Source: Mitosporidium daphniae (taxonomy: Eukaryota; Microsporidia). From it: 64,000 bases of DNA. Positions 18,341 to 26,614 of the stretch are shown in pieces. The first letter of the stretch is position 1, and each line of letters opens with the position of its first letter. The position numbers were made by a program, and so were the translations under genes. The notes below the pieces were generated by a model that searched no databases, was not told the origin of the DNA, and worked only from the letters and a program-made list of their open reading frames with translations. Location of the stretch: the NCBI RefSeq assembly GCF_000760515.2, contig NW_013546689.1:1-64000 (forward strand), read 5' to 3'.

Positions 18341-19888
18341 ATGGGCAGCTCGGAAAAGATCGATCTCAAAACCCCAAAGGTACTTGCACGATTTCTTAGC
18401 ATGAACCCCTAGGGCACCAAAGACTATGCGCCTGCTGAAATGGCCATCAGAGAGAAGGCGTTCTCCATCATCACACAATGCTTCAAGCTTTACGGCGCCG
18501 TTACTATTGATACCCCGGTCTTTGAGCTAAAGGTATACACCTAAGGCCTTTATTACCGTTCCTAGGAGGTTCTTACAAATAAATATGGCGAAGATTCCAA
18601 GCTCATCTTTGACCTTCAAGACCAAGGCGGCGAGCTCTGTTCGCTTCGTTACGATCTTACCGTTCCATTTGCAAGGTTTCTTGCAATGAACAAGCATATT
18701 AAGGCCATAAAGAGATACCATATCGGCAAGGTCTATCGCCGGGATCAACCGATCATGACTCGGGGTCGGTTTAGAGAATTCTATCAATGTGTAAGCATGT
18801 AACTTTGATCGCCATCCGTCTTTTAGGATTTTGATATTGCAGGGCAATACGAGTCGATGCTTGCCGATGCGGAGATCATTGCCATCATGCATCAAGTGCT
18901 GTCGCGTCTCAAGATAGGCGAATTCGTTATCAAAATCAACCATCGCAAGCTTTTAGACGGCATTTTCGAGGCATGTGGAGTGCCTTGTGCTTCATTCCGT
19001 ACAATTTGCTCGTCGGTCGATAAGCTTGACAAGGTATCATGCTCAGCTAACATCCAGACACCATGGGAGGAGGTCCGTTCAGAAATGATCTCCGAAAAAG
19101 GACTTGGCTATGAAGTGGCAGATCATATCGGCTCGTTTGTCTCGAAGAAGGGAGATCCCTGCTCACTTTTAAAGGAACTTGCCTCTGACCCTATTCTTCT
19201 CGATAACGCTTCTGCGCAGCTTGGCATTGCCGAGCTGCAACGGCTCTTTTCATTTATCAACATGATGGTGGTAAAGGAGGAGCAACAGAAATCCAGAGTT
19301 ATCTTGGACCTTTCTCTTGCTCGAGGGCTCGACTACTACACTGGAATGATTACCGAGGCTGTCCTGTTTGAGAACAAGCACAACTTTGTTGGTATGCCCC
19401 AATTTACGCTATTTTTTATAGGTTCCATTGCCGGTGGCGGAAGATATGATGGATTGGTGCAAAACTTTTCCAACTCTGGACACACCATTCCTTGTGTGGG
19501 GATGAGCATTGGCATCGAGAGAATTTTTGCCATCATGGAGGCACAGCAAGCAGTATCCTCCATTGTTTCCAAAACAATCCCAACTCAAGTGCTCGTCGCG
19601 TCGCTGGGTGATCCGCTGTTGTCTGAACATCTCGCTATTTGCCAAATGCTTCGCTCTGCTAATATACCCACAGAGACGCCATTGAAGCAGCGGAATAGGC
19701 CTTTTGATATTTTCGAATATGCCGAGAAAAACATGGTCCCAATCCTGGTCATCTTCGGACAGGACGAGATAGCCGCGGGCAGCGTTCGCATAAAGCAGGC
19801 CTACGATCGAGAGGACAAGGGAAAGCTAGTTCCCATCGCCTCCCTTGTTCAGGAAATCGCTTTGAAGCTGGAAAATACTGACCTTTAG
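18341..19888 (+). CDS. HARS: Histidyl-tRNA synthetase, cytosolic type
   Basis: Class II synthetase that charges tRNA-His. Six exons (18341-18379, 18413-18532, 18566-18790, 18827-19033, 19058-19391, 19422-19888) give 463 aa, with introns of 33, 33, 36, 24 and 30 nt. Motif order is intact: the N-terminal LKTPKGTKDY, motif 2 ([20 protein letters not shown]), the histidine-binding [21 protein letters not shown], and motif 3 ([11 protein letters not shown]). A C-terminal anticodon-binding domain follows. There is no WHEP domain and no mitochondrial targeting extension with the ATG chosen, although one gene often supplies both compartments in fungi through alternative starts. Without the introns the protein appears broken at five places. 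Confidence 0.96.
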
Positions 19889-20139
19889 AGGCTTATAAAT
19901 CAAATCTGCCCCCACATCCTTAACCTCAATTTAATTCCTTTCAAATGCGCAGCATAGGAGCAACCTTAAGTTGTCAAAATAAACGCCCCTGTTTAGGGTT
20001 AGGGGTCATCTATAATGTGCCATCCCACGCCACATGCAAAACCCGGCCACAATGCTCCCATTATTAAATTTTATTTTCATCTTGATAAGTGCCCCTTGCA
20101 AATTTAAAATTTAATTCGAGATGTAAGTATTTGTCTTTT

Positions 20140-20208
20140 GTTTTCGTGATGAACTCTGCCGCCCCAGTCCTATCATATCGATGAGGATTATGCAGAACTC
20201 TGATTAAA
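20140..20208 (+). ncRNA. Probable box C/D snoRNA (snR190-like partner of U14)
   Basis: Box C is GTGATGA (20146-20152) and box D is CTGA (20200-20203), with a C'-like CGATGAG in between. The stretch after box C, GCCGCCCCAGTC, is complementary to the conserved large-subunit rRNA element GACUGGGGCGG(C/U). It lies about 50 bp upstream of U14 on the same strand. In budding yeast U14 is co-transcribed with another C/D snoRNA, snR190. The terminal stem is weak and a D' box is not clear. No guide target was tested computationally. Confidence 0.55.
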
Positions 20209-20251
20209 CCATCTTATTTTTGTTTGAAATTCTTACCTTTAGGCTCGAATC

Positions 20252-20338
20252 TCCGGGATGATGACAAGCCAATAAATTCGCAGTTTCCACTATAGGTTTC
20301 CGATGATAGTGAACACTTCCTTGGATGTCTGACATGTG
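20252..20338 (+). ncRNA. U14: U14 small nucleolar RNA (box C/D)
   Basis: Two diagnostic U14 blocks are present. Domain A is ATTCGCAGTTTCCAC (20276-20290), followed by TATAGGTTTCC. The 3' block GAACACTTCCTTGGATGTC runs directly into box D, CTGA (20329-20332). Box C is ATGATGA (20258-20264). Order and spacing match U14 from yeast to human. U14 base-pairs with 18S pre-rRNA and is needed for its processing, and it guides a 2'-O-methylation. It sits in the gap between convergent HARS and the HPC2-like gene, so it is either independently transcribed or released from the HARS 3' region. Confidence 0.95.
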
Positions 20339-20400
20339 TTACCGATTAATAAAATGCTGATGATGATGATGATACGTATATTTATTTTACTTGACATAAT

Positions 20401-22640
20401 CTACTGTTCTGAAGATGGTGTCTGCCCATTCTGTTTGGCCGCAATCGCATCGCTGGTGGCGTGGTGCGTGTAAGCGGTGTTTAGGCATTCCTCAGCATCA
20501 TTATCCCCGATGAAAATTGTATGGGTTTCATGCTCGTCCAGCACACGTAATCCAGCGTGCATTTGACTGGCCAAATGTGGGTCTCCATACCCCTGGCCGT
20601 TTGTCTCAAGGATTTCTATGTTTTTTTAGCTTCACCAATGGCTGCATCACACATCCGATATTCTCCAAGCCTGGAAGATATAGGAGAGTTCAAGACGGCC
20701 ACATGAGAGGCGGGGGTTTCCAAACCTTTTAAGACGCTCGCATGTACCATCGGTGAAACGGGCTTCGGATGCTCAATGTGTTCAATATGACTTACATCAG
20801 ACAAAGGAGAATCAGAGGGAGAGTATTGTTCCGCTATAGGAATCCCTATATCTGCCGGTAATTCCAGTTCAGAAGCAGGATAAACAGAATCTACCGCAGG
20901 AAGGATTAGATCCCCCTCTTTGATAGTATGATGCAGCTCCATTGCCAAGGGAACAATCGTTTTTGACTCAACTTTGCCTCGCCTTTCGGCCATTTTATGT
21001 AAAGCAGAAAGGTGTGCAAATACTGCAGCTCTGATAGAAGAGCCGTCAGGCTCATCAGCGAGGATCCGCCGGCGGGGGGGATCTGGCATAACAGAAGCTG
21101 GTTTGCAGACTGGCATAGATAAAAGCGATTTCGACGCCGGTTCTATAGATACCACACAGGGCAAATCTCCGGTTTCCTGAGATAGGATTTCTGTATGACC
21201 TATTGGCTCCATACTCGTCATGTTGGCTGCAACGCGCTTCCGCTTCTCTCGTGCGTAAGCCTTTGCAAAAGTGCTTGTCGATAGTGTCTGCGAGGATGGC
21301 GAGAGTGCAAGCAGCAGAGCAGCATATGCCGAGCGCCGCAGTGTTAGTCGACTCTTCATCAGTAACTCGGTGTTGGAGATTTTCGTCGCAAGCAGAAGCT
21401 CTCTGATCACAAAAGCTTCCACAAATTCATATATAAGTCGCTGGAGCGAGACTAGTGGTTTTTTCTTCTCATCGCATGCTTTAAGTGTAGCACGAATGGC
21501 ATTGAGCCGGTTCTCCTGCTCCGCAGAGATATCATCAATCAGAGCTCCAAGCTCTTCTATAGGGATTTTTGTAAGCGCCACACTGACCGCAGAATATTTA
21601 CCCCCGCGATCTGCTCCTCGAGTGATAGTGACTGAGCTATCACGATTTTTTTCCAAAGAAGAAATTTCCTTGCAAGAAACATCCATGGACTCGCTAGCAT
21701 TTCCACTTTCAAGCGTGAGAATATCTGTCGGTGACATCTCAAAAGTTTTTTCTCCAATTGCTTCATAAACCAACTCAGAGGTAGACTCATCAATAATCCT
21801 TTTTGTTGATTCACTAGGTATTTCCTTTTGTGTCTGGTCTTCATCGGCATCATCATCGAAAAGCAACAGCATATTCTCACGGATCTCATTGAGAACCATA
21901 TGGGCGTCAGGTCCCGAAATGCTTNTACGACTTCCCCATCGTTGCTCAAAGGCCCCAAGAAGCCCAGGAGCTGAATCCTGTAGCATTTGGGCAACCGTTT
22001 TTGACGCGACAGGGGGTGGTCCAGTTTTGCTGTCCGTAGCCTCTGTTCGTCCCATCGGTGCGATGTCAATGGATATGGACACAGATCCATTCTTATGTTC
22101 ATGCGTCTTCATATTTTTTGGCTTTGTTCTCTTTGAGCTTGTATCCTTTGCAAGACCCACTGAGAGTTTGGCACTTTTGGAGCCCTTTTTTGGCTTGTAA
22201 GGTGCTTGTTCCGGTGTCTTTTTCTTTGAAGCTTTGTGTTTCGGTTTTTGCTTTGAGTCTTGTGTTTCCTCCTTGATTACAGCGCCATTTGTCTTGGGAG
22301 GTTTAGGCTCTTCAGCTACAGGGCGCTTCTTCGGGACAGCCCGCCGAATCTCCTCAATATAATAATCGGAAGCACGGGGAAACCCAGATAACTGACTGGA
22401 ATGTTCCGATATGTCCCCATTCCTGCCTCCGCCATCATCGATGAAAGGATCCTCAAAGTCGTAATCCCCTACATCAAAGTTGCGTCGAGATTTTTTTGCA
22501 GGCGATATGGCACTGGGAGCCATAGGTACTTGGATATTGACAGGTGCTGTTGGAGCTAGTAGTTTTTCGTAGTTAAATAGATGGAACCGCGACACGCCGG
22601 TGGTTAGTGCATGCGGAGGCGGGTCCAACTCGAGACGCAT
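20401..22640 (-). CDS. HPC2/ubinuclein-like HIR histone-chaperone subunit
   Basis: Proposed subunit of the HIRA/HIR H3-H4 chaperone. Exons 20636-22640 and 20401-20615 give 739 aa. The N terminus has an ubinuclein-like start (MRLELDPPP..FHLFNYEKLL) and the hallmark HUN-type motif DYDFEDPFIDD near residue 60. A Lys-rich segment with nuclear-localisation character, then acidic and helical regions, follow. The 3' exon is inferred. After a 20-nt GT-AG segment (20616-20635) the frame stays open for 71 codons with good coding character and ends SSEQ. The ATG at 22640 directly follows an AG, so an upstream 5' exon cannot be excluded. One base (21925) is N, leaving one codon unknown. This gene and SMC3 look more GC-rich than their neighbours. 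Confidence 0.75.
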
Positions 22641-22722
22641 CTGTTAATTCAAAAAACGATTAAATGGGACGGCCTGTCATTTAATTAAGTAACTATTCGG
22701 TGTATCACCCCAGATATTCATC

Positions 22723-26614
<3,892 letters not shown>

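Follow-up and report, generated by a model that had tools for sequence, protein, structure and literature searches.

A box C/D unit lies upstream of U14 on the same strand in the snR190-U14 dicistron of Saccharomyces cerevisiae, and a like order in Mitosporidium daphniae, in the gap that separates HARS from a convergent open frame, raises the question of whether the same dicistron is preserved there. The locus was analysed within a window of 64,000 nucleotides (contig NW_013546689.1, positions 1 to 64,000 of the forward strand). Judged by sequence, the pair of ordinary snoRNAs is real, the partner of U14 had been misassigned by the sequence-only reading of the locus, and the claim of an ancient U14-snR190 dicistron cannot be derived from it. 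Very probably, the gap encodes two box C/D snoRNAs of M. daphniae on one precursor, a P-loop guide that would lie in an intron and a U14 that would lie in an exon.

Organism and surroundings of the locus

The SMC3 frame of the window (22726-26223) was identical (100%, full length) to a protein of M. daphniae, and this match settled the species. The NCBI taxonomy assigns M. daphniae to Microsporidia, and according to an excerpt of PMC7017984 it is one of the two sequenced microsporidia that diverged earliest. HARS by itself had not been decisive: among the best 120 of 6210 matches, the near-identical P0001 was followed by one EukProt entry, unnamed records, and animals. The named proteins among the best 120 of 3509 BMS1 matches were fungal, and ten sequences of solved BMS1 structures were of no help for placement. 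In a BMS1 tree that was unrooted and built without Rozella from 44 rows chosen among these 120, the window stood apart from the named fungi together with two environmental sequences (P0122, P0123). The one row labelled S. pombe (P0188) grouped next to a protein of Rhizoctonia; its label is probably wrong, so that Ascomycota may be missing from the tree.

The 5' neighbour of the snoRNA pair is a frame ending at 19888, to which the Pfam families tRNA-synt_His and HGTP_anticodon were assigned, in agreement with its earlier naming as HARS. The opposed open frame at 20616-22643 had been called HPC2-like, a label that gained nothing from Pfam (0 families at E <= 0.001); this frame also contains the single N of the window, at 21925. 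At the edge of the window, positions 41-113 of the minus strand encode a tRNA-Arg (ACG).

The U14 17-mer was matched in seven viral contigs, none of which had an Rfam match at E <= 0.01, and the two-block U14 pattern occurred in neither the genome contig collection nor the viral contig collection. These collections thus yielded no relative of the locus for comparison. No Mitosporidium rRNA was detected in the 147 contigs of the assembly with the guide-target pattern or with two short patterns for rRNA, and no 5.8S family member occurred among the 39 of 182 candidates scored; rDNA seems to be absent from the assembly. Eight bacterial MAG contigs (L019-L026) that bear eukaryotic-type LSU motifs, apparently as contamination, were used as LSU stand-ins.

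The U14 unit

Bases 20253-20336 of the plus strand were matched by the Rfam U14 family RF00016 with 43.9 bits and an E-value of 9.7e-8 (cmscan, 901-base search). The features of this unit are as follows:

20253..20336, plus strand: U14 (SNORD14), compact form, RF00016 match and single genome match reported
20258..20264, plus strand: box C of U14, AUGAUGA, read from the sequence
20276..20290, plus strand: domain A of U14, AUUCGCAGUUUCCAC, SSU pairing for processing, from sequence reading and RF00016
20316..20328, plus strand: domain B of U14, CUUCCUUGGAUGU, SSU methylation guide, from sequence reading and RF00016
20329..20332, plus strand: box D of U14, CUGA, read from the sequence

The alignment covers model positions 1-111 in full with the conserved blocks AUUCGCAGUUUCCAC and CUUCCUUGGAUGUCUGA intact, and it was the single match reported in the 4.66-Mb assembly, where 99 of 101 first-look candidates were scored. 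The curated cut-off of RF00016 is 64 bits, which is why U14 was absent from the gathering-threshold search of the whole window, where a single tRNA was the only entry. This cut-off is a curation threshold, and the unit was called U14 despite its score because the boxes and both domains are present. On these features, bases 20253-20336 are assigned to U14/SNORD14 with both domains and boxes, as the sequence-only reading had proposed from the two invariant blocks and boxes C and D.

Boxes C and D and domains A and B, with a putative complementarity to the SSU, are shared with U14/SNORD14 of RF00016, while the Mitosporidium unit differs from the model by its compactness (84 nt on 111 positions, with the two domains spaced by 25 nt) and its score below the cut-off. 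On the SSU of contig L026, domains A and B formed duplexes of 12 and 13 nt, respectively, each with one G-U pair, at sites with 327 nt between them. Such pairing was clear in this one of the four contigs with an SSU 3' end; in L019, L021, and L022 the duplexes were partial or inconsistent among the best four listed per contig.

The short distance between domains A and B (20291-20315) leaves little space for an extra domain of the type that U14 of S. cerevisiae has. This extra domain is reportedly conserved in other yeasts and missing from vertebrates, to go by the title of one study. Directly after U14, a (TGA)n repeat at 20358-20372 presents several mimics of box C; a third C/D unit at this repeat was rejected, as five contigs gave no consistent in-register complementarity to SSU or LSU for the bases preceding the CTGA at 20409. 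Matches to SNORD11B and v-snoRNA-1 were at chance level (E 2.3 and 1.4).

The upstream box C/D unit

The second C/D unit, hereafter unit 1, comprises the following features:

20140..20209, plus strand: unit 1, box C/D snoRNA of the U31/snR67/GlsR4 (P-loop Gm) class, ends inferred from a 4-bp terminal stem GUUU/AAAC
20146..20152, plus strand: box C of unit 1, GUGAUGA, read from the sequence
20158..20168, plus strand: guide of unit 1, GCCGCCCCAGU, complementary to the P-loop in LSU duplexes that include flanking bases
20169..20172, plus strand: degenerate box D' of unit 1, CCUA, in the register of CUGA in GlsR4 and CUUA in snoU31b
20179..20184, plus strand: degenerate box C' of unit 1, CGAUGA, 6 nt 3' of D', by direct reading
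20200..20203, plus strand: box D of unit 1, CUGA, read from the sequence

Box C through box D measures 58 nt end to end, and an alternative box C' (UGAGGA) is present at 20182-20187. With box C at 20146, box D at 20200, and 54 nt from the latter to box C of U14, the earlier description of a second C/D unit about 50 bp upstream on the same strand proved accurate. The guide extended by its 3' C to a 12-mer occurred exactly once in the 4.66-Mb assembly, and with at most one mismatch it was found at 8 genome places compared to 4 for the reversed control pattern. The combined pattern of TGATGA, 0-14 bases, and CGCCCCAG had one genome occurrence, namely unit 1, and its reversed control had zero. Boxes, guides, register, and uniqueness are what the sequence itself shows.

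Folding of unit 1 showed no excess over shuffled sequences (z -0.37; 71 of 200 shuffles fold equally well), and such an excess is not expected for C/D RNAs. The flat folding result and the weak Rfam scores of unit 1 given below are what a chance motif or a snoRNA pseudogene would also produce. This explanation is nevertheless highly improbable, with the exact guide in C-box register unique in the genome and the domains and boxes of U14 all intact.

Target and guide class of unit 1

The P-loop segment GACTGGGGCGG starts at nt 2246 of E. coli 23S (NC_000913.3, rrlB), with G2251 as its sixth base. The unit 1 guide GCCGCCCCAGU pairs with GACUGGGGCGG, which starts at the same nt 2246, so that the conserved LSU element to which the guide had been proposed to pair is the P-loop, and the guide is in register with a D'-like box. 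With CCUA taken as box D', the D'+5 rule selects base 20164, which pairs with the equivalent of E. coli G2251. Together with its neighbours, the guide formed 12-13 bp with 1-2 G-U pairs in five of the eight LSU contigs (L019, L020, L021, L022, L025) and 12 bp with one G-U pair on E. coli 23S. Contigs L023 and L026 end before the P-loop, and L024 is long enough yet lacks the P-loop motif, which is unexplained.

In the literature, the P-loop pairing site is placed in helix 80 (excerpt of PMC2806949), and snR67 is described to direct the modification of yeast G2619, the counterpart of Gm2251 in E. coli (excerpt of PMC11121408). Guides listed for this site in the available tables are U31, AtsnoR35, CD13 of Dictyostelium, and GlsR4 of Giardia (PMC8817022, PMC11427974, PMC3511168), and the last of these sources, as far as its available text goes, counts the site among the C/D snoRNA targets of the last eukaryotic common ancestor. 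We infer that DdR13 of Rfam is the CD13 tabulated in PMC8817022.

A cmscan of 81 unit 1 bases returned nine families at E <= 10, none of them significant alone (best E 0.11). By their letters, five of these carry a P-loop guide: snR67 with 16.3 bits (E 0.11), GlsR4 with 13.3, snoU31b with 13.1, DdR13 with 11.7, and TtnuCD11 with 9.6. The other four weak matches, to sR2, RMST_1, snoR9, and sR32, are to families without such a guide. No family passed its Rfam cut-off, the best being snR67 with 16.3 bits against 55. All 11 nt of the unit 1 guide are found in GlsR4 (Giardia) and TtnuCD11 (Tetrahymena), the last 10 in DdR13 (Dictyostelium), and 10 of 11 in snoU31b, while snR67 shares the core CGCCCCA only. 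The four letters 3' of the guide are CUGA in GlsR4, CUUA in snoU31b, CUGC in DdR13, and AAUA in TtnuCD11, and CCUA occupies the same register in unit 1.

By guide and register, unit 1 is assigned to the P-loop Gm guide class (U31/snR67/AtsnoR35/GlsR4), with the G2251 equivalent as predicted target, which corresponds to G2619 in yeast. The guide and D' register of unit 1 are shared with this class (Rfam clan CL00053, snR67 and U31) and with the look-alikes DdR13 and TtnuCD11, although unit 1 scores below every Rfam cut-off of these families. No description of a P-loop guide as the neighbour of U14 was found in a literature search that drew on partial texts and was not a full survey.

Relation to the snR190-U14 dicistron

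The D' guide of snR190 pairs with helix 73, where G2395 is the predicted site (excerpt of PMC8536666), and the equivalent site is served by snR107 in S. pombe and SNORD12 in human (excerpt of PMC11971394). In the Giardia list, as far as available, GlsR4 (snR67/U31) and GlsR5 (snR190) appear as separate RNAs, and the P-loop and snR190 classes are therefore distinct. An orthology of unit 1 with snR190/snR107 was ruled out by the position of GACTGGGGCGG at E. coli 23S nt 2246 together with the published site tables. On reading unit 1, no snR190-type guide was seen, nor the pairing with helix 73 at G2395 that ASE1 requires. The candidate D guide of unit 1 (20185-20199) had no consistent rRNA match, ASE2-like pairing with LSU domain I included, among the best four duplexes per contig in the eight contigs and E. 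coli 23S. The exact snR190-type motif, which was inferred from the helix-73 sequences of L020 and L022 (L019, the third contig in which this stretch is visible, differs), was not found beside a C box in the assembly; this negative is weak.

While helix 73 (G2395) and domain I are the pairing partners of S. cerevisiae snR190, the Mitosporidium unit 1 guide is directed to helix 80 and its unit is predicted to lie in an intron. The parallel with yeast fails because the guide identity differs, with the P-loop in one case and G2395 in helix 73 in the other. For S. pombe and Neurospora crassa, published accounts, in the parts available, already link U14 to a unit of the snR190 class. Cluster V of N. 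crassa likewise has a C/D unit linked to U14, and its CD16 (snR190 homologue) and CD37 (U14) are co-transcribed and both listed as intronic in the available text; it differs from Mitosporidium in that the partner of U14 belongs to the snR190 class. The proposal that a conserved snR190-U14 order makes the dicistron ancient in fungi fell with the assignment of the unit 1 guide to the P-loop class, and gene order alone does not show such an ancient dicistron.

Candidate intron around unit 1

Splice-like signals enclose unit 1 and delimit the following feature:

20123..20242, plus strand: candidate intron of 120 nt, GUAAGUA ... UUCUUACCUUUAG, enclosing unit 1

The GUAAGUA at 20123 lies 23 nt 5' of the unit 1 C box, UUCUUACCUUUAG terminates at 20242, ten bases ahead of the Rfam U14 start, and a UNAC is found 7 nt from the 3' end. 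The hexamer GTAAGT occurs 13 times on both strands of the 64 kb, and TNAC at 5-14 nt was found for 306 of the 2983 YAG sites in the window. Spliced alignment assigned five introns of 24-36 nt to HARS, all of the form GTA...AG and each supported by two or more of the three proteins aligned. TNAC was present in four of these five introns, in two of them at 5-14 nt from the end. The HARS introns (window 18380-19421) are strikingly short. The candidate snoRNA intron has 3-5 times their length, with an excess of about the size of unit 1. These signals suggest that unit 1 probably lies within a 120-nt intron and U14 in the next exon.

The closest described layout is the S. pombe mamRNA locus (excerpts of PMC11971394 and PMC12508059), with the intronic C/D snoRNA snR107 directly upstream and U14 in the 3' exon, and with a hairpin possible over the spliced junction in both organisms. 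The two differ in the guide, which serves the G2483/G2395 site in S. pombe and the P-loop in Mitosporidium, in the stem, which is long (-35 kcal/mol) in the former and a predicted 7-bp hairpin in the latter, and in the start of U14, which in Mitosporidium would fall about 10 nt into the exon.

Predicted junction hairpin

Removal of the predicted intron would bring together two complementary arms:

20114..20120, plus strand: 5' arm of the junction hairpin, AUUCGAG, formed with the predicted intron removed
20244..20250, plus strand: 3' arm of the junction hairpin, CUCGAAU (loop AUG), formed with the predicted intron removed

Joining 20122 to 20243 yields AUUCGAG-AUG-CUCGAAU, a stem of 7 Watson-Crick bp centred on the predicted junction. 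Seven bp were reached by 19 of 5000 dinucleotide shuffles of the junction flanks (40 nt of exon 1, 20 nt of exon 2), and by 35 of 2942 real GTA..AG pairs in the window with introns of about 100-140 nt; the stem was noticed first and these statistics were computed afterwards. In the spliced RNA, the stem pairs had probabilities of 0.53-0.67, and in the unspliced RNA no pair between exon 1 and exon 2 exceeded 0.3. An upstream stretch of exon 1 also pairs with bases at the U14 box C in the spliced fold (0.58-0.63).

Alternative explanations

In S. pombe, a splicing-dependent stem of -35 kcal/mol, which extends from position -15 in exon 1 to +121 in exon 2, is a substrate of Pac1 (excerpt of PMC12508059), and a comparable step in Mitosporidium would have splicing build the junction hairpin and a cut by RNase III free U14. 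The published mechanism, the rarity of 7 bp among shuffles and real pairs, and the dependence of the modelled stem on splicing favour such a step. The S. pombe stem is far larger, however, and 7 bp are short for RNase III; the 3' arm stops 3 bases short of the U14 match, the pairing at box C would hinder snoRNP assembly and leaves the fold unclean, and the stem was spotted before it was tested. Release by this route is judged unlikely, and the modelled hairpin is kept as a lead. There may instead be no intron, with both RNAs cut or trimmed out of a dicistronic precursor that is not spliced, like that of S. cerevisiae, or with a separate promoter for each; this reading has a minor share of the probability: 54 nt separate the units, but GUAAGUA, the branch-like UNAC, and UAG frame unit 1, and GTAAGT is rare in the window.

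Unit 1 could also descend by position from snR190/snR107/SNORD12 with its guide swapped, in which case the dicistron would be ancestral and the target alone would have changed. Order and strand are as in S. cerevisiae and S. pombe, and the linkage extends to N. crassa; snR107 of S. pombe, in the text available, is likewise intronic upstream of U14 and likewise has CCUA as box D'. Four common letters in D' are weak evidence, though, the unit 1 guide is of another class, whose own origin the available source places in the eukaryotic ancestor, and a snR190-type guide was seen neither in unit 1 nor, as the exact inferred motif, beside C boxes of the assembly. A descent of this kind is considered quite unlikely.

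Proposed organisation and significance

The preferred reading remains an intronic P-loop guide followed by an exonic U14. Counting against it are the U14 score below the Rfam cut-off, the non-significance of each single unit 1 match, the degenerate boxes D' and C', and the greater length of the candidate intron compared with the HARS introns. Both units would probably reside on one precursor transcript between HARS and the convergent open frame, from which unit 1 would be released out of a spliced 120-nt intron, with U14 at the start of the downstream exon. The D' guide of unit 1 would pair with the LSU P-loop and lead to 2'-O-methylation at the equivalent of E. coli Gm2251 and yeast Gm2619. 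Domain A of U14 would assist 18S maturation and domain B would guide the methylation of a conserved 18S cytidine. Expression, splicing, the joint precursor, and methylation are predictions for the two units. The combination of U14 with a P-loop guide may most simply be a lineage-specific neighbourhood that arose via snoRNA gene mobility, rather than a U14-snR190 dicistron.

Few snoRNAs are described from microsporidia; PMC6461891, of which an excerpt was available, cites 10 for Encephalitozoon cuniculi. No account of M. daphniae snoRNAs was found in the open literature searched, a scope outside which a microsporidian ncRNA survey (Belkorchia 2017) falls. A U14 with both domains and a widespread P-loop guide are now placed in an early microsporidian. 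Position upstream of U14 does not by itself make a snoRNA snR190, as it is the guide that decides its identity. The form with intronic snR107 and U14 is not evident beyond Schizosaccharomyces in the available text of PMC12508059, and the Mitosporidium locus, which lies outside Ascomycota, allows one to ask whether intron-plus-exon pairs of U14 and another snoRNA have formed more than once. It is doubtful that the layout of an intronic C/D snoRNA, a U14 at the exon head, and a splicing-gated hairpin is older than Schizosaccharomyces, lies near the fungal root, and had its passenger exchanged. If it were so, the passenger would be a P-loop guide in Mitosporidium and a helix-73 guide in Ascomycota, and the constant part of the locus would be U14 rather than the pair.
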